DNA of 27,403 bases from assembly GCA_946887085.1 (NCBI GenBank), contig CAMPKG010000004.1:1-27403 (forward strand), given 5' to 3'. This DNA is from an uncultured Sphingobacteriales bacterium. GTDB lineage: Bacteria > Bacteroidota > Bacteroidia > Chitinophagales > Chitinophagaceae. The position numbers were made by a program, and so were the translations under genes. Below, in pieces: positions 10,435 to 26,373 of this stretch. Position 1 is the stretch's first letter, and each line of letters starts with the position of its first letter. The notes beneath the pieces are model-generated. The model made no database searches, was not told the origin of the DNA, and worked only from the letters and a program-made list of their open reading frames with translations.

Positions 10435-12210
10435 ATGTCTCAAAAGCTGTCTTTTTTCAATTTGTCTTTAAAAAAGGCGCTTGACGCGGAGCCTGACGGC
10501 TTTATCAGGGCTCGGGTCAGCATTGTATTTACCATCCTTGTTTTTAGTCTGTTCAAGGCATCTTTCACTCTTGCTTCCTCTGTCGCTGCCGGCCAGGAAA
10601 TGCAAAGCTCGAGGGCGATAGTTGGTCTCATAATGTACCTGGCACTTACAAAATTGTTGCTGTCGCGGCCCGGACTGATACAAGTTATCGCGCACGCTAT
10701 GCTTTGCGCGGGCCTGATACTGGTGTGGAGCAATATCTTTCTATATATACATAAACTAAACCTGGTCACGCTTCAGTTTGTGTTTATGATAGTTTTAAGT
10801 GGCTTTTATACCCTTGGCGGCAGAGCAGGTTTGTTTTATTCTATAATGGGCGTGGCCCCGGTTGTAATTGCCGTTCTTCTTGGTGAGAATATCAATATCT
10901 ATTCCACCGACACTGTTGCCGAACTTGCGTCGCCGGGATCGGAAATATTGATCATTCTCAATTTCATTACGATCATTATCGCGCATTATCTTTTTTTTAA
11001 GGCATTCAAAAACAATGTCAGGGAGAAGGAGAAGTTGAATGGGCAACTGCGCCAATCAGTCGAAGAGGCGACGAGGCTTGCGTTATCCAGGTCTAATTTT
11101 CTTTCAACCATGTCGCACGAGTTGCGCACGCCGTTGAATGCTGTCATTGGGACTACGGAACTTCTGATAAAAGATAAGCCGGAAGAGCGACAGCAGGAGA
11201 ATCTCAGAATATTGCAGTCCTCCGCTGTAGACTTACTTTCACTCATTAACAATGTTCTTGACTTCAACAAGATCGATTCAGAAAAACTGGAGTTGGAAAA
11301 GCTCCCCGTTAATCTTGGCGAGCTGGTGCAAAACGTATGCGCAGCGCTAAAAGTGCGGGCCACAGGAAAAGGCCTTGACCTTTCTGTGGAAATTGACGAG
11401 CGCCTGAAGGGCATCTATTTCTCAACAGACCCCACACGTCTATCCCAGGTACTTTATAACCTGGTGGGTAACGCAGTTAAGTTTACGGACAAGGGTAAGG
11501 TATCCGTGGTGCTGTTTTGCGGCGATATAAACGAGGCTGAAGCAAAAATCAGTTTCTCCGTAGAAGATACCGGGATAGGTATCAGCGGTGATAAACACGA
11601 GGCGATCTTTGATGTATTTGCGCAGGCCGAATCGCATGTGACCCGTAAGTACGGGGGCACAGGCCTGGGGTTGCCCATAGTAAAACAGCTGTTGATGCTT
11701 TTTAACAGTAAAATTGAACTGGAGAGTATTCCGGGCGAAGGAAGCAAATTTTACTTTACCCTACAGCTTCAAATAGCATCTGTGCGTGCTATTTCTGAGC
11801 GCGAGCTGGTCATGGCCGGCACCGATGCTGTGGACCTGGGGCATTTGCGCCTGCTTATTGCCGAAGACAATGAGATCAACAGGATGATCATAAAAAAACA
11901 ATTAGCAACATTTAATGTGGACCCGGTTATCGTTGAAAATGGAGCGATCGCTTATGAGCGGTGGCTTAGGGAAGATTTTGACGCGGTAATACTGGATCTG
12001 CATATGCCGATTGCCGATGGTTATGAAACCGTGAAAAAAATTCGCGCTTATAGTGAGGTGGCTAAGGCAAGTACACAGGTAATTGCATTTACAGCGTCTG
12101 TAAATGAACGCGAGCAATTGGTAGAAGCCGGATTCGATGACTTCCTGTATAAACCGGCTAATATCAAAGATCTCCGGGAGAAACTGGAAGTAATTTCGAA
12201 GAAGCGCTGA
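10435..12210 (+). CDS. Hybrid sensor histidine kinase / response regulator
   Basis: This 591-residue hybrid kinase has about six N-terminal membrane helices (about 26-200) without a large sensor loop, so it probably senses an intramembrane or cytoplasmic cue. A HisKA domain follows with SHELRTPLNAVIG and phospho-acceptor His228, then a HATPase domain with NLVGNAVKFTDKG (N box), DTGIGI (G1) and GGTGLGLPIVK (G2). The C-terminal receiver domain begins at LRLLIAEDNEINR and has phospho-acceptor Asp521 in ILDLHMPIADGY and the lysine of LYKPA. No separate output regulator is adjacent. The gene stands alone and ends at a strong terminator. Confidence 0.95.
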   Translation: MSQKLSFFNLSLKKALDAEPDGFIRARVSIVFTILVFSLFKASFTLASSVAAGQEMQSSRAIVGLIMYLALTKLLLSRPGLIQVIAHAMLCAGLILVWSNIFLYIHKLNLVTLQFVFMIVLSGFYTLGGRAGLFYSIMGVAPVVIAVLLGENINIYSTDTVAELASPGSEILIILNFITIIIAHYLFFKAFKNNVREKEKLNGQLRQSVEEATRLALSRSNFLSTMSHELRTPLNAVIGTTELLIKDKPEERQQENLRILQSSAVDLLSLINNVLDFNKIDSEKLELEKLPVNLGELVQNVCAALKVRATGKGLDLSVEIDERLKGIYFSTDPTRLSQVLYNLVGNAVKFTDKGKVSVVLFCGDINEAEAKISFSVEDTGIGISGDKHEAIFDVFAQAESHVTRKYGGTGLGLPIVKQLLMLFNSKIELESIPGEGSKFYFTLQLQIASVRAISERELVMAGTDAVDLGHLRLLIAEDNEINRMIIKKQLATFNVDPVIVENGAIAYERWLREDFDAVILDLHMPIADGYETVKKIRAYSEVAKASTQVIAFTASVNEREQLVEAGFDDFLYKPANIKDLREKLEVISKKR

Positions 12211-12243
12211 TACTATCGGTTGCTTAGAGGAACTATATTATTT

Positions 12244-12270
12244 AAAAGCCGCACAAAATGTGCGGCTTTT
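12244..12270. terminator. Bidirectional rho-independent terminator
   Basis: A perfect 12-base-pair hairpin (AAAAGCCGCACA pairing with TGTGCGGCTTTT, loop AAA) has a T-rich end on both strands. It lies between the convergent sensor-kinase gene and the cupin gene and serves both. Confidence 0.93.
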
Positions 12271-12280
12271 ATGGTGTTGT

Positions 12281-12817
12281 TTACGGAGCATTTTTGAATT
12301 TCTTAAATGCGCCGGTAATTTTCCCAATGGTGTGTAAGACTGGAAATGCTATCCGTTTGACCGGAGTCGGTATTTCCATGATGTCGAACTCTGACCTGTA
12401 TCTGCGTAACAGAAAAACGCTGTCCATCATCGCGGGGCGGTGGTTTTTGCTGGCTTTTGCAGACTTGAATATCTCGGTGATAAAATATTCAAAGTTGTAT
12501 ATCGGCCAGATGCGTCCCGTGCCCTTTAAAGGGATTTCACCGGCATTCCAGAATTTATGTGCAATGCCAGCTTCAAACAATACTGTTTCACCGGCTTTAT
12601 AATAACGTGGTTCTTCTCCGGCTATTTGCGTACCCATATAACCCTCAAGTATCGTGATCTCTTCATGTTGCTTATGATGTACATGCATAGGCGGCCCGCT
12701 TCTAGGCTGCACCAGATTGTCCGCGATCATACATTCGATACCATCTTTTACATCCGGGCCCACAAAAGTCAGCTCTTCACCAAAGCCGTTGTCGATCGTT
12801 ATTGGATACTTTGTCAT
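12281..12817 (-). CDS. Cupin-domain protein
   Basis: This 178-residue protein carries a single cupin fold. The first metal-binding motif is in PPMHVHHKQHEEITILEG (His45, His47, Glu52), and the second includes His87 in AGIAHKFWNAG. A C-terminal helical extension of about 80 residues with a weakly hydrophobic end follows. Metal and substrate are unknown. It follows the membrane protein at 12819 with one base between stop and start, and GGAGG lies 8 bases before its ATG inside the end of that upstream gene, unusual for a Bacteroidota translation start. It belongs to the operon controlled by the TetR operators at 13308-13352. Confidence 0.85.
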   Translation of the reverse strand: MTKYPITIDNGFGEELTFVGPDVKDGIECMIADNLVQPRSGPPMHVHHKQHEEITILEGYMGTQIAGEEPRYYKAGETVLFEAGIAHKFWNAGEIPLKGTGRIWPIYNFEYFITEIFKSAKASKNHRPAMMDSVFLLRRYRSEFDIMEIPTPVKRIAFPVLHTIGKITGAFKKFKNAP

Positions 12818-14024: not shown

Positions 14025-15566
14025 CTAACAGCCTTGTATTTGTGCAAGCCTGGCTTTATGATCTTTAACTATTATTTCATAGCTGCCCGGCGTTGTTCTT
14101 ACGTTTATCGGTTTCCCGTCTTTAACAGCAGGTTTGAATCTTATTTGTTCGGAAAGGATTTTTTTCAGTCTGTTATCTATTGATTGCTTAAGATCCTGGC
14201 CGATCAGGGGCCATCTTTCGTACGACGACATTGATATTCTAAGGCCCTCTACCTCATAGTAAGCAAGTTTGCCGTCATAGTCTACCACCATCTTGTCAAC
14301 CTGCAAGGCATAACCGCCGTCTTCAAGTTTGTCCAGGTCATCCTTCAGCGCATTGAACAGGTACTCATATATGCCTTTTGCAGAACCATCCAGTACCGGA
14401 AGGGAATAGTTTTTTTCCGCATCACCGAGCATGTACTGTTCTTCATTTCCAAAAATATGCTGGCCGTTGATGGAAACGGGCATAATATCAGACTTTACAG
14501 TATACCATTTTTGTATACCTGTTAGCGGGTCCTTTATCAGGACTGAATCAGGAAGCGTAGTATAGCTGAGCAATCTTTTTTGTTGTTCCATGGTCTCACG
14601 ATATTCATAAGGAATAACCTTCAAACTCCCGAACTCAATTTCGTTGCCATTGAACTTCACTTTGTTATTGCCTGATCTTATACCGGAGAAGGACGTTTGC
14701 GTGCAGAATACTACAAGCAGTAATACCAGCGGAAGGGTAGCGGAGTATTTCAGCAACCGGTTAGCGGCGCTTTTTTCGCGTGTAAGCATAACTATCCTGT
14801 TTTTTATAGGTGAATAATTGAAACGATGAGTAAGTATCGGGGAGTTGCGTAATATACTTTGTTCCACTAAGAAGTTTCCGTATGTCGACGAACTGCTGCC
14901 GGCGGCTGTGTCGGCCTGGAATTCGTGTATCATCCGGAGTCTTCTGTAGTAAAGATGGACAAGCGGGTGAAACCAGAACACAATACGGAGCATAATAAAC
15001 AACAGATTATCCAGCGAATGCAGTCTTTTACCATGCTCTCTTTCATGGGCTATCAAGAGCTGCCATTGTTCATCGCTGTATGCGGTTCTGGCGCTAATAA
15101 ATATTGTGTCGAAAAAGGAGAAGGGACTGTGTGTTTTGCCGGTTTCTATTAATTGATAGCCATTTTCAGCACCCCTGGTGCCTGACCTGAATAGCTTCAG
15201 CAGTTTAAAGCAGTCAACCGCAACTATAGCAATGGCAACGAAAACACCTGCGAGGTACAACCCCAGAAGCAGCAGTCCTATGTTGATGCCTGATGCTGTA
15301 TCGGCTGCTTCGATTGTTTGTGCTGACTTGGCATCTAAGACATTCCTGACCTCAATAGTTGCAGCCGTGGGCCGGGATAAAAACTGATGCTCATTTCTAT
15401 TGACAATGTTATTGATCTCAGCAAACGGCAATACGACGCCTGCAAGCAGAGCTATTATAAGGTAAAACCTGTTGGCCTGGTGAAAGGTTTCTTTGCGCAA
15501 CAGAAGGTCAAAAAATACCAGGGCGGTCAGCCAGATGATAGTGGTATTAATGAGGTGCTGTAACAT
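14025..15566 (-). CDS. M56-family (BlaR1/MecR1-like) membrane metallopeptidase
   Basis: This 513-residue protein has N-terminal membrane helices (about 8-23 and 33-50), another near 95-118, and a cytoplasmic zinc-protease domain. The HEREH motif is at 174-178 and the third ligand is probably Glu215 in HEFQAD. A fourth helix near 272-290 leads to an extracytoplasmic C-terminal region of about 220 residues that lacks a penicillin-binding domain. M56 proteins are usually paired with a BlaI/MecI repressor that they cleave. No BlaI gene lies beside this one, but a palindromic site sits in its leader (15593-15610). The peptidase presumably senses a cell-envelope signal. Confidence 0.9.
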   Translation of the reverse strand: MLQHLINTTIIWLTALVFFDLLLRKETFHQANRFYLIIALLAGVVLPFAEINNIVNRNEHQFLSRPTAATIEVRNVLDAKSAQTIEAADTASGINIGLLLLGLYLAGVFVAIAIVAVDCFKLLKLFRSGTRGAENGYQLIETGKTHSPFSFFDTIFISARTAYSDEQWQLLIAHEREHGKRLHSLDNLLFIMLRIVFWFHPLVHLYYRRLRMIHEFQADTAAGSSSSTYGNFLVEQSILRNSPILTHRFNYSPIKNRIVMLTREKSAANRLLKYSATLPLVLLLVVFCTQTSFSGIRSGNNKVKFNGNEIEFGSLKVIPYEYRETMEQQKRLLSYTTLPDSVLIKDPLTGIQKWYTVKSDIMPVSINGQHIFGNEEQYMLGDAEKNYSLPVLDGSAKGIYEYLFNALKDDLDKLEDGGYALQVDKMVVDYDGKLAYYEVEGLRISMSSYERWPLIGQDLKQSIDNRLKKILSEQIRFKPAVKDGKPINVRTTPGSYEIIVKDHKARLAQIQGC

Positions 15567-18231: not shown

Positions 18232-19002
18232 ATGAAAATTGCTACTTATAATGTCAACGGAGTGAACGGGCGTTTGCCGGTATTGCTTCGCTGGCTCGAA
18301 GAATCGAAGCCAGATATCGTTTGTCTCCAGGAGTTGAAGGCGCCGGAAGAGAAATTTCCGAAGGACGATATCAATAACGCCGGTTATGAGGCAATATGGC
18401 ACGGACAAAAAAGCTGGAATGGCGTAGCCATACTTTCAAGAGTTGGAAAGATCAGTGAAGTGTGCCGGGCTTTACCGGGCGATCCTGAAGATATGCATAG
18501 CAGGTACATTGAAGCCGAGGTGGAGGGTATTACTGTAGGTTGTCTCTACCTGCCAAATGGAAATCCCGCGCCGGGCCCCAAATTTGACTATAAATTGAGC
18601 TGGTTTGAGCGGTTGACAGCACATGCAGCAGGTTTGTATGCTTCGGGCAACCCTGTGGTCTTAACAGGTGACTATAATGTAATGCCAACGGAACAGGATG
18701 TATATAAACCGGAAAGATGGGTGAATGACGCGCTTTTCCGGCCCGAGACCCGGGAAGCATTCAGAAAGTTAATGGCACAGGGATGGACTGACGCCATCAG
18801 GCATCTCTATCCTTCCGTTACCATCTATACATTTTGGGACTATTTCAGGAATGCGTATGAGCGAAATGCAGGGCTGCGCATAGACCATTTCCTGTTGAGT
18901 CCCGACCTGAGGCCAAAGTTGAGGAGCGCAGGGGTAGACCGGCATGTCAGAGGATGGGAAAAATCCAGCGACCATGCCCCTGTCTGGATAGAACTTGAAT
19001 GA
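18232..19002 (+). CDS. xthA: Exodeoxyribonuclease III / AP endonuclease
   Basis: This 256-residue enzyme hydrolyses 3' ends of duplex DNA and cuts at abasic sites in base-excision repair. The family catalytic residues are in place: Asn7 in TYNVNGVNGR, Glu34 in CLQELKAPEE, the GDYNVMPTEQDVY segment with the Asp/Asn pair, RIDHFLLSP, and the final SSDHAPVW with the catalytic His. Length matches E. coli exonuclease III (about 268). It is soluble and cytoplasmic. The preceding gene stops eight bases before its start; the lasso-like locus follows after 40 bases. Confidence 0.95.
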   Translation: MKIATYNVNGVNGRLPVLLRWLEESKPDIVCLQELKAPEEKFPKDDINNAGYEAIWHGQKSWNGVAILSRVGKISEVCRALPGDPEDMHSRYIEAEVEGITVGCLYLPNGNPAPGPKFDYKLSWFERLTAHAAGLYASGNPVVLTGDYNVMPTEQDVYKPERWVNDALFRPETREAFRKLMAQGWTDAIRHLYPSVTIYTFWDYFRNAYERNAGLRIDHFLLSPDLRPKLRSAGVDRHVRGWEKSSDHAPVWIELE

Positions 19003-19042: not shown

Positions 19043-19969
19043 ATGGAAAAGTATCAATATTGGGGATTTGGGCTTAATATAGAATCGGAGATAGAATTTC
19101 CTGAGTTGATACCGCAAAGTTTTGATCAGCCGGACGTGACTATTTGTTTAGGCCAGGTGCCGGAAACGAACGGAGAAATTACATCAGACACAGAGGAGGT
19201 TTTTATCACCTTCAATGAGCGCGAGTATGTGCTGGATATAAAAGGGGTATCCAGGTACTATGTTACAGGGGGAAATAAGATAATTGTTGAGCCGCACCCC
19301 TCGGTGGATGCGCTGCGTAGCGTTCGCGTGTACATACTTGCATCGGCGATGGCGGCAATATTGTTTCAACGGGGAATATTACCCCTGCATGCGTCCGCCA
19401 TCAGGATTGGAAACGAACTTGTGTTGATTACAGGCAATTCAAAAGCGGGAAAATCCACCTCGCTTGCCGGGCTGGGCAAAAGAGGTTATTCCATCTTCAG
19501 CGATGATGTGGTTGTGTTGAAAGAAGATAGCGATGGTAAGATCACAGCAACGGCTACTTACCCGATGATCAAGCTCTGGGATGATGCCGTTACAGCACTT
19601 GATCACGAAGATTTTTCTGACAGGTCGTTTCGCATAAGGCCGGGAATGGATAAGTACGGAGTGTTTTTTCGCGATAGTTTTAATAAGGAGAGCTTTCCCG
19701 TATTTAAAACGATTATTCTGCAAATAGGAGATGTGGCAAAACCTGTTTCAAGAATACTCACGGGAATTGAGGCTTTTAACGAAATATCGAAGCAGGTTTA
19801 TCGCAGGCAGCAGATGTACAACGCAGAGAGAAAGGAAATAGGTTTTCGTACTATTTCTACAATGCTTCAGCATTGTAAAGTGTACCAGATCACAAGGCCA
19901 CGGCAAAACGATCCCCGATTGCTGATAGATGAAATAGAACGCGTATTGGGCAAAGATGATCCGGCATGA
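19043..19969 (+). CDS. HPr-kinase-like P-loop protein, lasso-peptide kinase candidate
   Basis: This is a 308-residue protein. An N-terminal all-beta region (about 1-85) is followed by LPLHASAI (113-120), a Walker A motif GNSKAGKST (131-139) and FSDDVVVL (152-159), the arrangement of the HPr kinase C-terminal fold. Homologues of this type in paeninodin-like clusters (PadeK) phosphorylate the C-terminal residue of the lasso precursor. Its stop overlaps the start of the lasso cyclase by four bases, showing translational coupling. The frame is open from a TTG at 18995 inside xthA, but the ATG at 19043 is preferred. No PTS HPr gene is nearby, so a carbon-catabolite role is unlikely. Confidence 0.85.
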   Translation: MEKYQYWGFGLNIESEIEFPELIPQSFDQPDVTICLGQVPETNGEITSDTEEVFITFNEREYVLDIKGVSRYYVTGGNKIIVEPHPSVDALRSVRVYILASAMAAILFQRGILPLHASAIRIGNELVLITGNSKAGKSTSLAGLGKRGYSIFSDDVVVLKEDSDGKITATATYPMIKLWDDAVTALDHEDFSDRSFRIRPGMDKYGVFFRDSFNKESFPVFKTIILQIGDVAKPVSRILTGIEAFNEISKQVYRRQQMYNAERKEIGFRTISTMLQHCKVYQITRPRQNDPRLLIDEIERVLGKDDPA

Positions 19970-21849
19970 GCGCTATTTACGGCATAGTATACAAGGGTAT
20001 TCAGCGGACAGACGTCGTCGGGGATGCACATAAGATAGCGGTTGCGCTGAAGCACCGCGCTACTAACTGCCAGGGACAATGGCAAGGTGAGCAGATATTG
20101 CTGGGTTTTGGAAGCCTTGCTACATCGGTTGGGCAAGGCGATGCCTCATTGCTGTATGAAGACAGTCGGTTTGTTGTTGTTGCAGACAGCTTATTATTTC
20201 GCAAACAACAGCTGGCCGCTAAATTAGGAATCGACACGAGTGGTTTTTCGGATTCCCGTCTAATTCTCGAAGCCTATCATAAATGGCAACGACGGTGTGT
20301 AGATCATCTCGAAGGTGAATTTGCTTTTGCTATCTGGGACAAGAATGCTAAACAGCTATTTCTGGTCACGGATCATATCGGTTTTCGTCCTCTTTATTAT
20401 TATGAATCTGACAAGATGTTTGTCTTTAGCAGCGAGCTAAAGGGCATATTGTCGGTAAAACCACCACCACATTATTTCAACGAAGCAAGCCTTGTCGAAT
20501 ACCAGTTTCGCCATGGTGATCCACTACAGACATTTGACAGGGATATCAAAGCACTGGGCGGCGCAACACTGGTAACTGTTACTGCAACTACTACTACGAT
20601 CGATCGATACTGGACCCTTAGTACATCCGGCAAATACCGGTTTGCAAATGATGAGGACTGGATAGCTTGTCTTTCTGAATTGTTCAGGGAAGCGGTGGTG
20701 AACAGGTTGGCTACTGAATTTCCGGTAGGAGTAACGCTCAGTGGTGGATTGGATTCTTCGGCGGTGGCATCAGTGCTGGCACCGATACTTGCCGGGAAAA
20801 ATAAACCTTTGTACTGCTTTTCCTCTGTATTGCCTGAAGGGCATATCGGCCCCGAACGTGATGAGCGGAAGTTCATAGAAATTGTTGGCAACACTCATCC
20901 AAACATCATACAAACTTATGTAGACGCTCCGGGTGCAGGACCGTTCAAAGCGGTACCCGAAGCTTTTGAGGATGACGAAACATTTCCCAATGTATTCTTT
21001 TACATGGACAGGGCAATCCTGGAAGCGGCGCAACAAAAAAATGTCAGAATGCTTTTTTCGGGGTTTGGTGGCGACTACGCTGTTTCACACAAGGGAAACA
21101 CGGTCATTTATCAATTGATAATGCAGGGACGATATGTTGAGGCTTTACGTATTGCTGTTAAAATGGCGCATGTCCGTAATGAAAACGTGGCGAAAGTTTT
21201 GAGGACCGACGTCGCCGCTCACCTTTCGATATACAGGACGATCAGTCAGTTTGTGAACCGGCGCAAACCAAACAAATTGTCTCATTCGGTACTCAAGAAA
21301 GCTTTGCTTAATAGATATACACAAAACGTCAATATTAAGCCGCCAACCGACAACAAAGACTTTCTATCGCAACACGTCGCCGATGGAAATATCGCGCGGA
21401 CGTTGGGCATGTTCGCCAATCGTAATGAAAAATTTGGCATGGGAGCAGCAACACCGTTCTTTGATAAGGATCTGCTAGAGTTCATAATGGATGCACCGCT
21501 GCATTTACTGGTAAAGACAGGGCATCATAGATCGATGTTCAGGCTGGCGATGGAAGGTATTCTTCCTGAAGAGATACAATGGCGAACAGATAAATTGCCT
21601 TATTCACCATTTTTTCAAAAGCGTGTGTTTGCCTCTGTCGCTGAATTGGAGGCGATACTCGGATCGATCCCGGACCCAATAACGGGAGCTTTGATAGATA
21701 AAACGGTGATAGCCGGTTTTATTGACGAGGTAAAGGCCTTGCAGCAACAAGGAGGAGTAGAACAACTTCGCGGGATAAGAATTGCACAGGCGGGCATAAT
21801 GGCCCTGGTTATCAATCTTTTACTACAAAAAGAGTACTTTTTTGAGTAA
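19966..21849 (+). CDS. Asparagine-synthetase-like lasso cyclase (C protein)
   Basis: This 627-residue protein has two domains. The N-terminal Ntn-hydrolase-like domain starts MSAIYGIVYK: the catalytic Cys2 of asparagine synthetase B (MCGI) is Ser, so glutaminase activity should be lost. The C-terminal ATP-pyrophosphatase domain has the PP-loop LSGGLDSSAV (Ser259 onward). In lasso biosynthesis this domain adenylates an Asp/Glu side chain of the core and forms the macrolactam with the N-terminal amine. It lies between the kinase (four-base overlap) and the precursor gene, with a PqqD/RRE gene beyond, which favours lasso cyclisation over asparagine synthesis. Confidence 0.88.
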   Translation: MSAIYGIVYKGIQRTDVVGDAHKIAVALKHRATNCQGQWQGEQILLGFGSLATSVGQGDASLLYEDSRFVVVADSLLFRKQQLAAKLGIDTSGFSDSRLILEAYHKWQRRCVDHLEGEFAFAIWDKNAKQLFLVTDHIGFRPLYYYESDKMFVFSSELKGILSVKPPPHYFNEASLVEYQFRHGDPLQTFDRDIKALGGATLVTVTATTTTIDRYWTLSTSGKYRFANDEDWIACLSELFREAVVNRLATEFPVGVTLSGGLDSSAVASVLAPILAGKNKPLYCFSSVLPEGHIGPERDERKFIEIVGNTHPNIIQTYVDAPGAGPFKAVPEAFEDDETFPNVFFYMDRAILEAAQQKNVRMLFSGFGGDYAVSHKGNTVIYQLIMQGRYVEALRIAVKMAHVRNENVAKVLRTDVAAHLSIYRTISQFVNRRKPNKLSHSVLKKALLNRYTQNVNIKPPTDNKDFLSQHVADGNIARTLGMFANRNEKFGMGAATPFFDKDLLEFIMDAPLHLLVKTGHHRSMFRLAMEGILPEEIQWRTDKLPYSPFFQKRVFASVAELEAILGSIPDPITGALIDKTVIAGFIDEVKALQQQGGVEQLRGIRIAQAGIMALVINLLLQKEYFFE

Positions 21850-21876
21850 ACATCCATCTATTTTTTTGCGGAATCC

Positions 21877-21907
21877 TTGTTTGAAATGTTGTTTTACGCT
21901 ATTTTTA
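21877..21907 (+). promoter_or_regulatory. Putative promoter of the lasso precursor gene
   Basis: TTG (21877-21879), a 20-base spacer and TATTTTTA (21900-21907) match the Bacteroidota promoter with one mismatch in the last position. The expected start of transcription is about ten bases before the precursor ATG. This would let the precursor be made in excess of the enzymes. Confidence 0.5.
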
Positions 21908-21923
21908 GCCTCAAATACCATCT

Positions 21924-22073
21924 ATGGAAAAGAACTTACAAAACATCGAAAACACAACCAACAGCCAGACTAAAGAAAGTTGGGTGAAGCCAACAGTTGA
22001 AACACTATCCGTACTTGAAGATACGCTTGCGGCGGGCGGCGTGGGTACAGATTCAACAACTGAGCTAACTTAA
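21924..22073 (+). CDS. Lasso-type precursor peptide, 49 residues
   Basis: This small gene begins at an ATG 74 bases after the cyclase stop. The leader has W20-V-K-P23, matching the aromatic-x-x-P motif that the RRE protein binds, then VETLSVLEDT with Thr34. Applying the Thr(-2) rule, the core starts at Ala36: AAGGVGTDSTTELT, 14 residues, with Asp at core position 8 for an eight-membered macrolactam ring and a six-residue tail. The C-terminal residue is Thr49, a possible target of the adjacent kinase. The leader resembles that of paeninodin. An alternative core start at Ala37 would give a seven-membered ring. Cleavage after GG is also conceivable, but no C39 peptidase is present. Expression and product are unproven. 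Confidence 0.75.
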   Translation: MEKNLQNIENTTNSQTKESWVKPTVETLSVLEDTLAAGGVGTDSTTELT

Positions 22074-22352
22074 CTTCACCAGCTTTTGCTCGTGCATTTT
22101 TTGTAAACATAAGAGCGTATCGGCAGTGCACTCGTCCTGCTGCACATCATAACGCCCCATAAGGTACTGGATCAATTCCTCCACCCTTATGGGTTTTTCT
22201 ATTTGCTGCCAGATCACATTTGCCATTTTGTTCAGGCCTATGTAATTGCCGTTGGTGATATCCATTATCACCAAATCATCCCCCAGGTTGCTGGATACAA
22301 GTTCGCCGGCATTGCGCTGTACGGTCATATCTACCATGATAGTCGCTCTCAT
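22065..22352 (-). CDS. PqqD-like RRE protein (lasso B1)
   Basis: This is up to 95 residues. The PqqD signature is clear: NLGDDLVIMDITNGNYIGLN, then MANVIWQQIEKPIRVEELI and ADTLLCLQKMHEQKLV. Such RiPP recognition elements bind the leader peptide and deliver it to the peptidase and cyclase. The gene is on the strand opposite to the kinase, cyclase and precursor, and its last nine bases overlap the end of the precursor gene tail to tail. Possible starts are 22352, 22337 and 22328; the putative promoter at 22364-22357 places transcription start near 22350, favouring the two internal ATGs. The usual partner B2 peptidase is not adjacent. Confidence 0.85.
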   Translation of the reverse strand: MRATIMVDMTVQRNAGELVSSNLGDDLVIMDITNGNYIGLNKMANVIWQQIEKPIRVEELIQYLMGRYDVQQDECTADTLLCLQKMHEQKLVKLS

Positions 22353-22356
22353 AATG

Positions 22357-22364
22357 CAAAAATA
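22357..22364 (-). promoter_or_regulatory. TATTTTTG promoter core for the PqqD gene
   Basis: An exact TAnnTTTG element on the minus strand, ending five bases before the longest possible PqqD start. It lies inside the U-rich tail of the upstream ompA-type terminator. No TTG is seen about 20 bases further upstream, so strength is uncertain. Confidence 0.45.
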
Positions 22365-22396
22365 ATAAAACCGTTCTTTAGAACGGCTTTATTATT
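22358..22396. terminator. Strong hairpin terminator between OmpA lipoprotein and PqqD genes
   Basis: Arms 22361-22376 and 22381-22396 pair with one mismatch around a four-base loop (core CCGTTC/GAACGG). On the minus strand it is followed by TTTTATTATTTTT, so it ends the OmpA-lipoprotein transcript. It can also stop plus-strand transcripts that run on from the precursor gene. Confidence 0.9.
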
Positions 22397-22412
22397 ATAT
22401 CTCAATGATGTG

Positions 22413-23081
22413 TTAATGATTTGCCTGCGCTGGCGCATCCTGTTTCATTTTCTCGTTGGCATATATCTGGAATTCCACGCGGCGGTTTTGGGCGCGTCCG
22501 GCATCGGTCTCGTTGCTGGCTATAGGTCGCATTTCACCATATCCATATGTAGTGACACGGCTACGCAGGATGTTTCTCGAGATAAGGTAACCAGCCACCG
22601 ACTCTGCACGACGCTCAGATAATCCCTGGTTGTAGTCTGTAGTACCACGGCTGTCGGTATGTCCCGATATTTCGAGGTTCGTATCAGGGTATTTGTTCAG
22701 AATGGTTACCAGCTTGTTCAGAGAGTTGTAAGCGTTGTTACCAAGACTGGCGCTGGCTGTTTGGAATAATACCGCCTCGTCGAAACGCACCACGATACCT
22801 TCTCCCACACGTTCTACTTCTGCCCCCGGCACTTCGTTTTTGATCTCTTCGGCTTGCTTGTCCATCTGGCGGCCAATGACAGCGCCAGCTGCGCCACCCA
22901 CTGCTGCGCCAATGATAGCGCCTGCAGCTGTGTTGCCTGCTGCGCGGCCCACAACACCGCCTACTACGGCGCCGCCGGCGCCGCCGATCACTGCCCCTTT
23001 TTGTGTTTTATTCATCGATCCGCAACTGCTGCCGAATATACCTGCTACTACTACGAGTGCTATACATGTTCTGATGTTCAT
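22413..23081 (-). CDS. OmpA-family lipoprotein with glycine zipper
   Basis: This is about 222 residues from the preferred ATG at 23081. The lipoprotein signal NIRTCIALVVVAGIFGSSC is followed by a glycine-zipper region (GGAGGAVVGGVVGRAAG and repeats, about 30-65), then an OmpA C-terminal peptidoglycan-binding domain with NLEISGHTDSRGTTDYNQ and GRAQNRRVEF. This is the YiaD/Pal-like architecture that tethers the outer membrane to peptidoglycan. The frame extends to 23108, but the extra nine residues precede the signal peptide. It is a monocistronic gene with its own terminator and divergent from the deacetylase operon. Confidence 0.93.
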   Translation of the reverse strand: MNIRTCIALVVVAGIFGSSCGSMNKTQKGAVIGGAGGAVVGGVVGRAAGNTAAGAIIGAAVGGAAGAVIGRQMDKQAEEIKNEVPGAEVERVGEGIVVRFDEAVLFQTASASLGNNAYNSLNKLVTILNKYPDTNLEISGHTDSRGTTDYNQGLSERRAESVAGYLISRNILRSRVTTYGYGEMRPIASNETDAGRAQNRRVEFQIYANEKMKQDAPAQANH

Positions 23082-23141
23082 AACCTGTCTTTTAACTAAA
23101 GCCTTCAAAAAATTATGCCTTCTTTAAGGGGTGGGGTGTTA

Positions 23142-23244: not shown

Positions 23245-24087
23245 ATGACAAAGCTGATGATCATATGGGATTACGACACGCCAATAGCACGGATAACGGC
23301 TAGCAAGCCTTATAACTATGTATTTGAGTCCTGCCTGGAAGAAGAAGGCCATGTCAACTATATCCTGGATGTAGCCCGGCAGCTGGGCGCCAGGTTTACT
23401 TTTGCGGTGCTGGGTTTTGGCGCCGAAGCCACGGTGGCACCTTTCGACGTCAGGCATGTGATCCGGCGTATTGCAGCAGAAGGTCACGAAGTAGCATCTC
23501 ACTCATGGAAGCATGAATGGTTGCCCTACCTGACAAAATACCAGCTTGACAAAACCCTGGAGCGAAGCAAGTTAATACTTGAAGAGTGTGTTGCGGCAGG
23601 GTATACCGTGAATGGGTTTGTATTACCGCACGACCGCCCGATGAGCTGGTATTCGCGGATGGCATTTAGCGCCGGCGACAGAACAATTTACCCTTTTTTC
23701 CCCGGTGCAAGTATCGATGGGGTAGCAAAAAGCCTGAAACATCAGGGCTATAAATGGATGCGGGTAAATTACCGTCCCATGTGGCAGAAATTCGTGGATT
23801 GGAAGGGGGTAAATATTAATTTCAGGCTGGCACGAAGGTTTACTTCCGAGGGAGGCTTTCATTTTGTGCCCGAACACTCCATGGAATTTGGAAAACCTAC
23901 TATGGATGCGCTGCAATACGCCATACGCAAGGGACAACCCTTGGTAGTTGCCGGCCATCCGGGCGCCTTCAGCTTCAGGAACGAGAATTTTGATAATTTC
24001 AACCGTTTTATGGACACAGTAGCTGGCCATATTGCCAGGCGAGAAATAGAACTGATAACCGTTTCAGAATATTTACATTTGCAATAG
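23245..24087 (+). CDS. NodB-like polysaccharide deacetylase-family protein
   Basis: This 280-residue protein lacks a signal peptide, so it acts in the cytoplasm if the start is right. The NodB fold is visible: IIWDYDTP with metal-ligand aspartates at 9 and 11, and SHSWKHEW with His86 and His90 (the H-x3-H metal pair). The expected RxPxG motif is replaced by FVLPHDRP, and VVAGHPGAF near the C-terminus may carry the last conserved His. A carbohydrate or other N-acyl substrate is expected but unknown. It begins a tightly packed operon with ACP, ketoacyl synthase and GNAT genes (gap of one base to the ACP gene), so it may act on the molecule acylated by that module. Confidence 0.8.
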   Translation: MTKLMIIWDYDTPIARITASKPYNYVFESCLEEEGHVNYILDVARQLGARFTFAVLGFGAEATVAPFDVRHVIRRIAAEGHEVASHSWKHEWLPYLTKYQLDKTLERSKLILEECVAAGYTVNGFVLPHDRPMSWYSRMAFSAGDRTIYPFFPGASIDGVAKSLKHQGYKWMRVNYRPMWQKFVDWKGVNINFRLARRFTSEGGFHFVPEHSMEFGKPTMDALQYAIRKGQPLVVAGHPGAFSFRNENFDNFNRFMDTVAGHIARREIELITVSEYLHLQ

Positions 24088-24088
24088 T

Positions 24089-24316
24089 ATGGAAAACAAG
24101 TTTCTAGACCTTTTCAGGGAGCAGTTCATGGAGACGGAGGCCGATGATATCCGGTTTGATACGGAGTTCCGCACGATACCCGAGTGGAGCTCGCTTTTGG
24201 CATTATGCGTCATTGCTATGGTTGATGAAAATTACAGCGTGAAACTGGCTGATACTGACATCAAATCCTGCACTAAGGTGAGTGATATATACAATATTGT
24301 TTCTACGAGGGTTTAA
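24089..24316 (+). CDS. Acyl carrier protein, atypical
   Basis: This 75-residue protein has the acidic four-helix ACP pattern. The phosphopantetheine serine is probably Ser35 in PEWSSLLALCV, where the usual Asp-Ser-Leu reads Ser-Ser-Leu. Helix three is ADTDIKSCTKVSDIYNIV. It would carry acyl chains as thioesters for the ketoacyl synthase three bases downstream and hand them to the GNAT protein. Divergence from housekeeping AcpP suggests a dedicated carrier of a specialised pathway. No phosphopantetheinyl transferase gene lies in the window. Confidence 0.85.
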   Translation: MENKFLDLFREQFMETEADDIRFDTEFRTIPEWSSLLALCVIAMVDENYSVKLADTDIKSCTKVSDIYNIVSTRV

Positions 24317-24319
24317 CCA

Positions 24320-25324
24320 ATGGCTTTCATCTCGGCAATTTCATATTATACCCCTGAGCATAGGTTGACCAACGATATGCTCATCGAGCGTTATCCTGAC
24401 GGAGACATTGTGAAGACGGAACAAGTGACCGGTATCAAAAACCGCTACATAGCCGCCGAAAATGAGTTCAGTTCCGATCTTGCTGTAAAAGCATCTGAAA
24501 AGCTGTTCACAGAGTATAATATCGACAGGAGTACCGTTGACTTTGTGATTGTATGTACGCAGACGCCCGACTATTACCTCCCGTCAACATCCTGCATCGT
24601 ACAGAATGCATTGGGCCTGTCAACAAAAACCGGTGCGCTTGATATCAACATGGGCTGCTCCGGCTATGTATATAGCCTTGGTGTTGCAAAGGGCATGGTG
24701 GATACAAGTGTGGCAAAGAACCTGTTGCTGATAACAGTGGATATATTCTCCAAGTTCATTCATCCCAGGGATAAGGCTAACCAGGTAATATTTGGCGACG
24801 CAGCTACAGCAACACTTGTCACAGCCGGCAAGGGATTGTTTCAGCTGAATGATTTTGTATTTGGTACCGATGGTAGCGGAGCAGGCAACCTGATCATTAA
24901 AGAGGGTGCAGGCCGCAATTTTAAAAAGACATTTGAGGAAAGAACAGACGAATACGGGAATGTATTGTGCGATTCTTACCTCTATATGAACGGCAACAAC
25001 GTGTTCAGTTTTACAATCCAGTCGGTGCCGGTGTTAGTGAGGGACGTTATAGAAAAGAACGGAACCAGTTTAGATGAAGTAGATCATTTCATTTTTCACC
25101 AGGCCAATAACTTCATACTTGAATACCTCCGCAAAAAAATAAAAATACCTGCCGAAAAATTCATCAGGAATATTGAAGGGGTGGGGAACACCACCTCCAG
25201 TACCATCCCGCTCGCCTTTAAAGATGCGATGAATGCCGGTGCTTTCAAGACCGGGCAGAAAGTACTTCTTGTGGGTTATGGTGTTGGGTTCTCCTGGGCC
25301 GGAGCCATTGTAACGGCATCTTAA
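24320..25324 (+). CDS. 3-oxoacyl-ACP synthase III (FabH-like)
   Basis: This 334-residue thiolase-fold enzyme condenses an acyl-CoA or acyl-ACP starter with an extender on ACP. The catalytic triad is complete: Cys113 in NMGCSGYVY, His260 in FHQANN and Asn290 in GVGNTTSSTIP. The C-terminal GYGVGFSWAGAIV is typical. Its placement directly behind a dedicated ACP (three-base gap) and before a GNAT gene (two-base gap) suggests a specialised role in making a short acyl or beta-keto-acyl group rather than housekeeping fatty-acid initiation. Confidence 0.93.
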   Translation: MAFISAISYYTPEHRLTNDMLIERYPDGDIVKTEQVTGIKNRYIAAENEFSSDLAVKASEKLFTEYNIDRSTVDFVIVCTQTPDYYLPSTSCIVQNALGLSTKTGALDINMGCSGYVYSLGVAKGMVDTSVAKNLLLITVDIFSKFIHPRDKANQVIFGDAATATLVTAGKGLFQLNDFVFGTDGSGAGNLIIKEGAGRNFKKTFEERTDEYGNVLCDSYLYMNGNNVFSFTIQSVPVLVRDVIEKNGTSLDEVDHFIFHQANNFILEYLRKKIKIPAEKFIRNIEGVGNTTSSTIPLAFKDAMNAGAFKTGQKVLLVGYGVGFSWAGAIVTAS

Positions 25325-25326
25325 GC

Positions 25327-26373
25327 ATGAAAAATGCTGAAAAAATACTTGGTATTTTAAAGAACCAGGGCTATTCCTTTGCCTTCCTGGTGAAGGACGA
25401 GGTACCACTGCACAAAGAATTCGTAGAGCGCAACTGGCCCGGCGCCGGTACACGTGGCAATTATGAATACAATAGCTGGAAGTACGGAACGCGCGGCGAT
25501 GCGATCAATCTTCTTGTCTGCAAAAAGGACGGAAAGATCATAGGCCAGATAGGGTACGTGCAGGCAAGGGTTTGGGTGAATGGCTCTGTTCACAACAGCG
25601 CCTGGGGCTGCAATTTTAAAGTCGATGAAAGCTACCGTGATGTTGGGATAGGCGCAGCGCTGGAGTTATATGCGGCAACGCAATTTCCCATCATCCTCGG
25701 CAACACGCCCTCGGCTCCTTCAATAAAATATAAAAAAGCCATCGGTTATCAATTGCTCGACGGCCCGGTAACCATGATGCTGCCATTGGCTGCAGATCAT
25801 GTATTGCAACTGAAAACACCTGAAGCGCTGAGAGGCTGGATGCCTCTTGCATCAGTTATTATTACCCCGTTTCTTCGATTGCTAAACCGTATGCGCCTGC
25901 GGAACAACGCCGGTGGACGATGGCTTAGTTCCCCTCCAGGCGACATCGCAACACGCATTATGCAAAAAGAAAGAGCACTTGCTGTGCCGCATATCGTTCA
26001 CGATACAGACTTTCTGAAATGGAGGTGCAAACCGATAGAAAATGTCAGGGCTTCCCCAGAGATGCTAATGCACGATGGCGATGACGCATCTTTTGCGATC
26101 TATTCAGCCTCTGGAAAACTCATCAATCTCTACGATTTTTCTTTCAGCAGTATCGATGTAGCTAAGTCTTTTATAAAATTACTTTCAGCAAACACGGCTG
26201 CGTCCACCATCAAGGTGTTGGCAAATGGCGAAGACGAAGTTGCATTGTTCAGAAAACTAGGATTTATTCCTTTCCGCACCCGTGCGGTGATCACGGTTTA
26301 TGCGCGCGACAAGAATTTCGATAGTGAGCGTGCAATGTATGTGACACTTTACGACGGAGACGGTGATATCTGA
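25327..26373 (+). CDS. GNAT-fold acyltransferase
   Basis: This 348-residue protein contains a GNAT acetyltransferase core: KKDGKIIGQIGYVQARVWV (beta strands), WGCNFKVDESYRDVGIGAAL with a degenerate acyl-CoA/ACP-binding loop, and a C-terminal second domain of about 150 residues with LFRKLGFIPFRTRAVI resembling a second GNAT unit. It is the last gene of the deacetylase-ACP-KAS III operon, so it probably transfers the acyl group made there onto an amino-sugar or other amine. Its stop TGA abuts the stop of the convergent OmpA gene. Confidence 0.75.
   Translation: MKNAEKILGILKNQGYSFAFLVKDEVPLHKEFVERNWPGAGTRGNYEYNSWKYGTRGDAINLLVCKKDGKIIGQIGYVQARVWVNGSVHNSAWGCNFKVDESYRDVGIGAALELYAATQFPIILGNTPSAPSIKYKKAIGYQLLDGPVTMMLPLAADHVLQLKTPEALRGWMPLASVIITPFLRLLNRMRLRNNAGGRWLSSPPGDIATRIMQKERALAVPHIVHDTDFLKWRCKPIENVRASPEMLMHDGDDASFAIYSASGKLINLYDFSFSSIDVAKSFIKLLSANTAASTIKVLANGEDEVALFRKLGFIPFRTRAVITVYARDKNFDSERAMYVTLYDGDGDI

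Follow-up and report, generated by a model that had tools for sequence, protein, structure and literature searches.

Gene content and layout of the locus

Can a locus that encodes the machinery for a lasso peptide, with no gene for the leader peptidase, still yield that peptide? This question is raised by a 27,403-base stretch of DNA (contig CAMPKG010000004.1, hereafter the window) from an uncultured Sphingobacteriales bacterium. Within the window we identified a lasso-peptide locus consisting of a HprK/PEPCK-like peptide kinase (K), a lasso macrolactam synthetase, or cyclase (C), and a precursor peptide (A) on the plus strand, and a PqqD-like RRE domain protein (B1) on the minus strand. K (19043..19969, 308 amino acids) and C (19966..21849, 627 amino acids) overlap by the four nucleotides ATGA that join the stop of K to the start of C (19966-19969). 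A encodes 49 residues (21924..22073, stop codon included) and meets B1 (22065..22352, at most 95 residues) tail to tail, with a 9-nucleotide overlap at 22065-22073. The K/C overlap falls where the transglutaminase-like leader peptidase B2 is encoded in many relatives. No match to B2 was found in the 27.4-kb window with a 20-sequence profile and hmmsearch --max, at E-values up to 10.

An earlier, sequence-only reading had called this locus lasso-peptide-like. All four frames were recovered where it had placed them, in the order K-C-A with B1 reversed, and the flanking genes that it named, xthA on one side and an OmpA-type lipoprotein gene on the other, are indeed present. It passed over both overlaps, the C-terminal residue of the core and the absence of B2.

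The cyclase and its relatives

The best NCBIfam match of C is the lasso cyclase model NF033535 (3.3e-105, 353 bits, cut-off 525). The protein begins with MSAIYG, so that Cys2 of asparagine synthetases is replaced by Ser, and the SGGLDS ATP motif is kept; the description of C as an asparagine-synthetase-like protein without its catalytic Cys was therefore correct. Relatives were collected by an alignment-based search (191 found, best 80 kept; a single-sequence contig search gave none). We computed a tree of 49 rows, of which 29 were labelled lasso on the basis of a Cys-less start (two of them, L028 and L035, have no K, B1 or B2 in view) and 20 were chosen asparagine synthetases with Cys2. The lasso rows and the synthetases split at 96/87, with one Cys-less row, L035, at the base of the synthetase side. 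The window cyclase is nested within a 28-row lasso clade (100/100) and, further, within a 14-row Bacteroidota clade (100/98). Its closest relatives are from Bacteroidota, and three Bacillota rows form a distant branch. Its neighbour in this tree is from Chitinophaga (90/89), a placement not recovered in a tree of 24 cyclases; the window sequence forms a long branch (0.96) with neighbours that differ between the two trees, which limits our reading of its position. Most related cyclases have B1, B2 or K neighbours. The question posed beforehand, whether C groups with true asparagine synthetases, is answered by this tree, in which it falls apart from them.

The precursor family

No family match for A was obtained in profile library scans. 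We searched the surroundings of lasso genes in related loci for frames that fit a motif pattern; after removal of chance or doubtful frames, 40 distinct precursors were left, the window's included. The rows dropped were 16 start fragments of chance or doubtful frames (including one in L099) and frames that lack an ATG ahead of the Trp, among them a plausible one in L111. A profile of the 39 other precursors, run over 640 stop-to-stop segments of at least 25 residues, scores the 49-residue frame at 47.2 bits (E=4.4e-14), against 9.2 bits (E=0.034) for the runner-up segment and 6.9 bits for the best of 20 residue-shuffled sets; because the 39 precursors were gathered by motif pattern, the profile is partly selected for the motif. 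When 30 of the 40 precursors were used in a wide protein search, 27 family members came back, one of which is the window's own peptide, and an identical protein (P0254) occurs on three contigs. The second question posed beforehand concerned conservation of the peptide frame beside homologues of the cyclase, and such conservation is seen. Together, the cyclase tree and the conservation of the precursor bear out the lasso-like reading of the locus.

A carries the features of the family, namely the recognition motif W-V-K-P, a Thr at position -2 and an Asp at core position 8. Across 30 precursor rows the W, the P and D8 are invariant and T(-2) is kept in at least 90%; T(-2) has been described as a residue recognised in processing (PMC10368454). 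The leader is 35 residues long (21924..22028), with the W at -16 and T(-2)-L(-1) at its end, and the spacing of 16 from W to core is shared with most parsed relatives. The core is the predicted 14-mer AAGGVGTDSTTELT (22029..22070), with a predicted ring from A1 to D8 and a tail from S9 to T14, and its last residue is Thr instead of Ser. It aligns residue for residue with GLGGGGPDFGSELS from a Chitinophaga locus (L010), with Thr for Ser at positions 11 and 14. An automatic parse of 58 family rows gave a ring of 8 in 49 and of 9 in the other 9; the first core residue is G in 45 and A in 6, the last is S in 35 and T in 4 (33 and 4 of 56 without two repeats), and the core is 13-16 residues long in 50. 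These counts retain two rows that repeat another peptide with a different start (P0250, P0257), a row cut by the locus end (L096) and at least four doubtful parses (the second peptide of L018, L098, L110 and L136). The window core is short, the usual length of lasso cores being 16-23 residues according to PMC4289311. Two or three different precursor genes are sometimes found in one locus (L012, at 11872-12325, L095 and L096; also L009, L011 and L018), and some of these loci carry unusual cores, such as GYWYFGGDVFGELS.

The kinase and B1

K matches TIGR04352 (1.7e-7, 30.7 bits, cut-off 200) and PF07475 (E=2e-5, 24.6 bits, cut-off 33.3), which agrees with the HPr-kinase-like identity proposed earlier, though under the curated cut-offs. 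H116, K137 within the P-loop GNSKAGKS (131-138), D154 and D155 are invariant across 27 aligned homologues; lasso kinases are reported to require this His-Lys-Asp-Asp motif (PMC9266682, PMC10368454). An AlphaFold2 model of K (pLDDT 88, pTM 0.86) retrieved PEPCK first in Foldseek (TM-score about 0.55 by query) and HprK lower (about 0.3), both being modest scores, and by sequence the K profile matches HprK (3tqf, 4.9e-6). A relative at 78% identity is encoded on another contig (P0122), and the 90%-identity cluster with the identical K protein comprises 9 contigs. At E<=1e-20, 12 of 298 Chitinophaga-order genomes carry a kinase match; at E<=1e-25, so do 13 of 291 genomes of the Emticicia order and 24 of 295 of the Paludibacter order.

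B1 matches PqqD (PF05402, 4e-15) above the cut-off and lasso_PqqD_Bac (NF033536, 1.2e-18) at 67 bits (cut-off 80), in agreement with the PqqD-type RRE identity assigned to it earlier; Y37 and six further residues are invariant in 14 aligned rows. The N-termini of relatives suggest a start at 22337 (MVDMTVQRN). In the interval 22337-22400 (minus strand), the first ATG lies only 8 nucleotides past a strong hairpin, and a TATTTTTG box overlaps the foot of this hairpin. The box may act as a promoter for B1 itself, in which case the downstream start at 22337 would be the likelier one.

Absence of a local leader peptidase gene

B2 is present within 20 of 27 related cyclase loci (L001-L027); contig ends truncate some of the remaining seven (L017, L023). 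Where both K and C are present, 19 of 21 loci have B2; the exceptions are L006, from a Paludibacter metagenome-assembled genome with the order K-A-C, and L015, from Emticicia with K-C. Mining of related species, as proposed in the earlier reading, showed that three loci (L004, L005, L018) have the arrangement K-B2-C-A with a reversed B1, that is, the window layout plus B2 between K and C, so the gene order is not unusual in Bacteroidota. All three precursors from B2-less loci (window, L006 and L015) retain the W..P motif and T(-2), and for the window the retention of T(-2) fits a B2 that is still in use.

In the tree of 24 cyclases neither L006 nor L015 groups with the window, and a single clade made up of the three is rejected (approximately unbiased test, p=0.0003, run after the 49-row tree had been seen; L008, L019 and L023 were labelled B2-bearing though B2 is not adjacent to their C). 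The B2-bearing L003 pairs with L006 (90/85). Given the rejected clade and this pairing, the absence of B2 probably arose more than once. A frame for an M56 peptidase at 14025-15566 was weighed as a stand-in for B2 but discounted: it lies on the opposite strand, 3.5 kb away, with no homologue at E<=1e-15 in L001-L027 or L157-L164.

Lasso genes scattered over Bacteroidota genomes

The chromosome of Emticicia sp. 21SJ11W-3, recorded as complete, has five cyclase matches (E<=1e-30, three by partial alignment), five kinases, four B1 and two B2, of which one is intact, near 0.919 Mb, and one is broken by stop codons, near 3.616 Mb. Its B2-less locus lies at 5.02 Mb and has the predicted core GSSDAGEDYASEIS. 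The cyclase-type and kinase genes are scattered over this chromosome (L015, L157-L161). In Chitinophaga sp. YR573, A, B2, K and B1 stand together and the only C match is about 309 kb away on the same contig; in C. oryziterrae, C is on a different contig from K and B2. At the thresholds applied, each of these two genomes gave a single match apiece for C, K, B1 and B2, with an additional stop-ridden 14-bit B2-like match in C. oryziterrae. Lasso enzymes in Bacteroidota can thus probably work in trans.

Proposed pathway and alternative explanations

We consider it probable that the product of this locus is a short, kinase-tailored lasso peptide of class II type and that the leader peptidase is encoded elsewhere. 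This is supported by the place of C in the lasso clade, the precursor family, the retained T(-2), the complete kinase motif with a PEPCK/HprK-like fold, and the split lasso genes in the phylum. No leader-cutting gene adjoins the locus, so leader removal probably depends on an enzyme whose gene lies elsewhere or proceeds in some other way. From these genes we infer the following sequence of activities. B1 would bind the W..P leader of A and present the precursor, and K would phosphorylate a hydroxyl of the linear precursor, most likely that of the C-terminal Thr14, with T11 or a ring residue as possible sites. B2 supplied in trans would read T(-2) and cut after L(-1), before A1; C would then adenylate D8 and close the A1-D8 lactam around the tail. 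The predicted 14-mer would have an [M+H]+ of 1261.59, or 1341.56 with one phosphate.

Several observations weigh against this pathway. The C-terminal Ser, the known phosphosite, is absent from the core, and in the precursor family it is not universal even beside K, which makes the phosphosite less certain than in paeninodin. A bulky tail residue usually acts as the plug of a lasso peptide; the tail of this core has none, and threading is accordingly uncertain. C, K and B1 all score under the NCBIfam cut-offs. No exporter was recognised among the frames scanned, and the window gave no ABC-profile match at E<=1e-5. Finally, no B2 was found in the Paludibacter genome with the similar B2-less layout, which may be incomplete.

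B2 may instead be dispensable, general proteases trimming the leader and B1, C and K maturing the freed or even the uncut peptide. This would accommodate the B2-less Paludibacter genome and the three B2-less cyclases that do not form one clade. Pseudomycoidin is also reportedly produced in vivo without leader and leader peptidase, to go by the title of a 2019 paper by Zyubko. We regard this as rather unlikely, however, because the window, L006 and L015 precursors retain T(-2) and the W..P motif and 20 of the 27 related loci have B2. The missing B2 and exporter, and the visibly broken B2 in Emticicia, could also be signs of a decaying remnant that lost B2 first and whose product is no longer made. 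Such decay appears improbable for a locus in which K, C, A and B1 have each stayed open with intact motif residues, which has a 78%-identical K relative on another contig and whose K-C overlap shows no trace of B2.

Wrong joins do occur in metagenome assemblies, and one of them might have removed B2 from the K-C junction. This is very improbable, since the end of K and the start of C match the family ends and share the ATGA overlap, and since L015, on a chromosome recorded as complete, and L006 likewise carry K and C without B2; the 9 contigs of the K cluster point the same way, for the K protein only. C might, lastly, serve a different pathway as an enzyme of asparagine-synthetase type, with the 49-residue frame arising by chance, and its score under the curated cut-off would be in line with this. 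Such an explanation is scarcely credible in view of the tree position, the change of Cys2 to Ser, the precursor profile match and the fact that most related cyclases stand near B1, B2 or K, and the sequence evidence is strongly against it.

The preferred reading, with B2 supplied from elsewhere, invites a wider and more tentative proposal, which we put forward as a speculation: Bacteroidota may hold a large family of very short phospho-lasso peptides with often split genes, in which one B2 or one cyclase serves precursors at other sites as a genome-wide shared service, not a closed cluster. In tail-poor cores a phosphate at the terminal Ser or Thr may act as the stopper that keeps the thread in place, and some lineages may have dropped B2 entirely. 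Genome mining usually seeks A, B and C genes side by side, so that split sets would score as incomplete and be passed over. If one B2 does serve several distant loci, there are more Bacteroidota lasso peptides than cluster-based counts show. The locus described here is a direct test case for the dispensability of B2, for the use of a terminal Thr by a lasso kinase, and for the threading of a 14-residue core without bulky tail residues.

Comparison with known systems

Like the paeninodin (Paenibacillus, PadeA/K/B1/B2/C), ThcoK and SyanK clusters, the window encodes an HprK-like kinase for a lasso precursor, a B1 of the split B1/B2 type, an asparagine-synthetase-like cyclase and a class II core. 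The His-Lys-Asp-Asp motif of paeninodin-type kinases is present in K; PadeK phosphorylates the linear precursor, and the kinases reviewed in PMC9266682 take a C-terminal Ser. Unlike paeninodin clusters, the window has no B2, a reversed B1, no visible exporter such as the cluster ABC transporter, a C-terminal Thr for Ser, a 14-mer core and a cyclase on a branch distant from the three Bacillota rows. Since the Cys-less cyclase, the precursor, the PqqD-like RRE and the kinase motif are present and the C-terminal Ser is not, with B2 judged within the window only, we call this a Bacteroidota-variant lasso locus and not a paeninodin-type member. The gene combination had been taken as specific to paeninodin-type clusters described in Firmicutes. 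That claim is not supported, because kinase-bearing lasso clusters are also described in Proteobacteria and Bradymonadales (PMC8498205 section 8; PMC10368454) and the closest cyclases of the window are from Bacteroidota.

Pseudomycoidin (Bacillus; PsmK, PsmN) shares with the window a kinase and, by title only, formation without a leader peptidase; unlike that system, the window has no nucleotidyltransferase-profile match and no B2. The bsf cluster of Bradymonas sediminis is similar in having a kinase helped by B1, a Gram-negative host and a ring closed at Asp8 (Gly1-Asp8 in bsf), and BsfK, which acts on Ser3, accepts Thr there; it differs in having its own B2, Ile instead of Thr as the penultimate leader residue, and a phosphosite in the ring (PMC10368454). 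The nearest systems are the Bacteroidota loci L001-L027 (Mucilaginibacter, Chitinophaga, Flavipsychrobacter and others), which share the cyclase clade and the precursor family. Unlike the window, several of them carry an ABC exporter, a nucleotidyltransferase, a sulfotransferase or three Collar proteins, and most have B2. Lasso genes with kinase and sulfotransferase neighbours have been published, mainly for Firmicutes and Gram-positive anaerobes (PMC8498205 section 8; PMC4289311), and Bacteroidetes are named among under-explored lasso sources by Tietz 2017, as cited in PMC7533575. In the open-licence literature, judged from titles and abstract openings, we found no work on lasso gene sets of Bacteroidota that are split or lack B2.

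Genomic surroundings and other observations

Phage Tail Collar (PF07484) proteins of about 185 residues, usually three in tandem (six in L157), are encoded beside Bacteroidota lasso loci. Such runs lie near the cyclase in L001, L007-L013, L016, L022-L024, L026 and L027, and also in L157 and L163; a formyltransferase-like gene accompanies several of them. In L001, L024, L025, L084, L097, L104, L108, L109, L111, L112 and many Bacteroidales loci among L114-L137 the lasso kinase has a sulfotransferase-like (PF00685) neighbour, in some cases along with a second kinase, an arrangement that suggests sulfated lasso peptides.

In the window, xthA (18232-19002) lies upstream of K, and a YiaD-type OmpA lipoprotein gene (22413-23108, minus strand) downstream of B1. 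The proposal that the locus is an insertion between housekeeping genes was not supported: xthA was matched in 157 of 399 genomes (E<=1e-60), and in the six relatives fetched for neighbourhood comparison no homologue of another window gene, the OmpA gene included, lies within about 1.5 kb of xthA. The best xthA matches reach 81% in one order and 82% in the other, which makes taxonomic placement by this gene ambiguous. When the flanks were compared in L001-L027 and L157-L164, the only genes with homologues besides K, C and B1 were a phosphatase (L159), a sensor kinase (L018, L025) and a FabH-like gene (L021). The guanine-plus-cytosine content of the locus, 0.44-0.47, is similar to that of its surroundings.

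Rfam gave zero matches at gathering scores, and sigma-70-like sites occur at chance level. A weak candidate promoter, TTTG-N16-TATTTTTA (21880..21907, plus strand), stands 5' of A and follows what we take to be the Bacteroidota consensus; the pattern occurs 4 times in the window against 2.6 expected. A 16-pair terminator-like hairpin (22361..22396, minus strand) occupies the interval between the OmpA lipoprotein gene and B1, and such sites number 5 in the region against 3.9 expected in shuffles, so that the class is not significant. Just past the OmpA gene, an operon-like run at 23245-26373 encodes polysaccharide deacetylase, ACP-like, FabH-like and GNAT-like proteins; the run resembles a small pathway for acyl transfer, with no apparent relation to the lasso genes.

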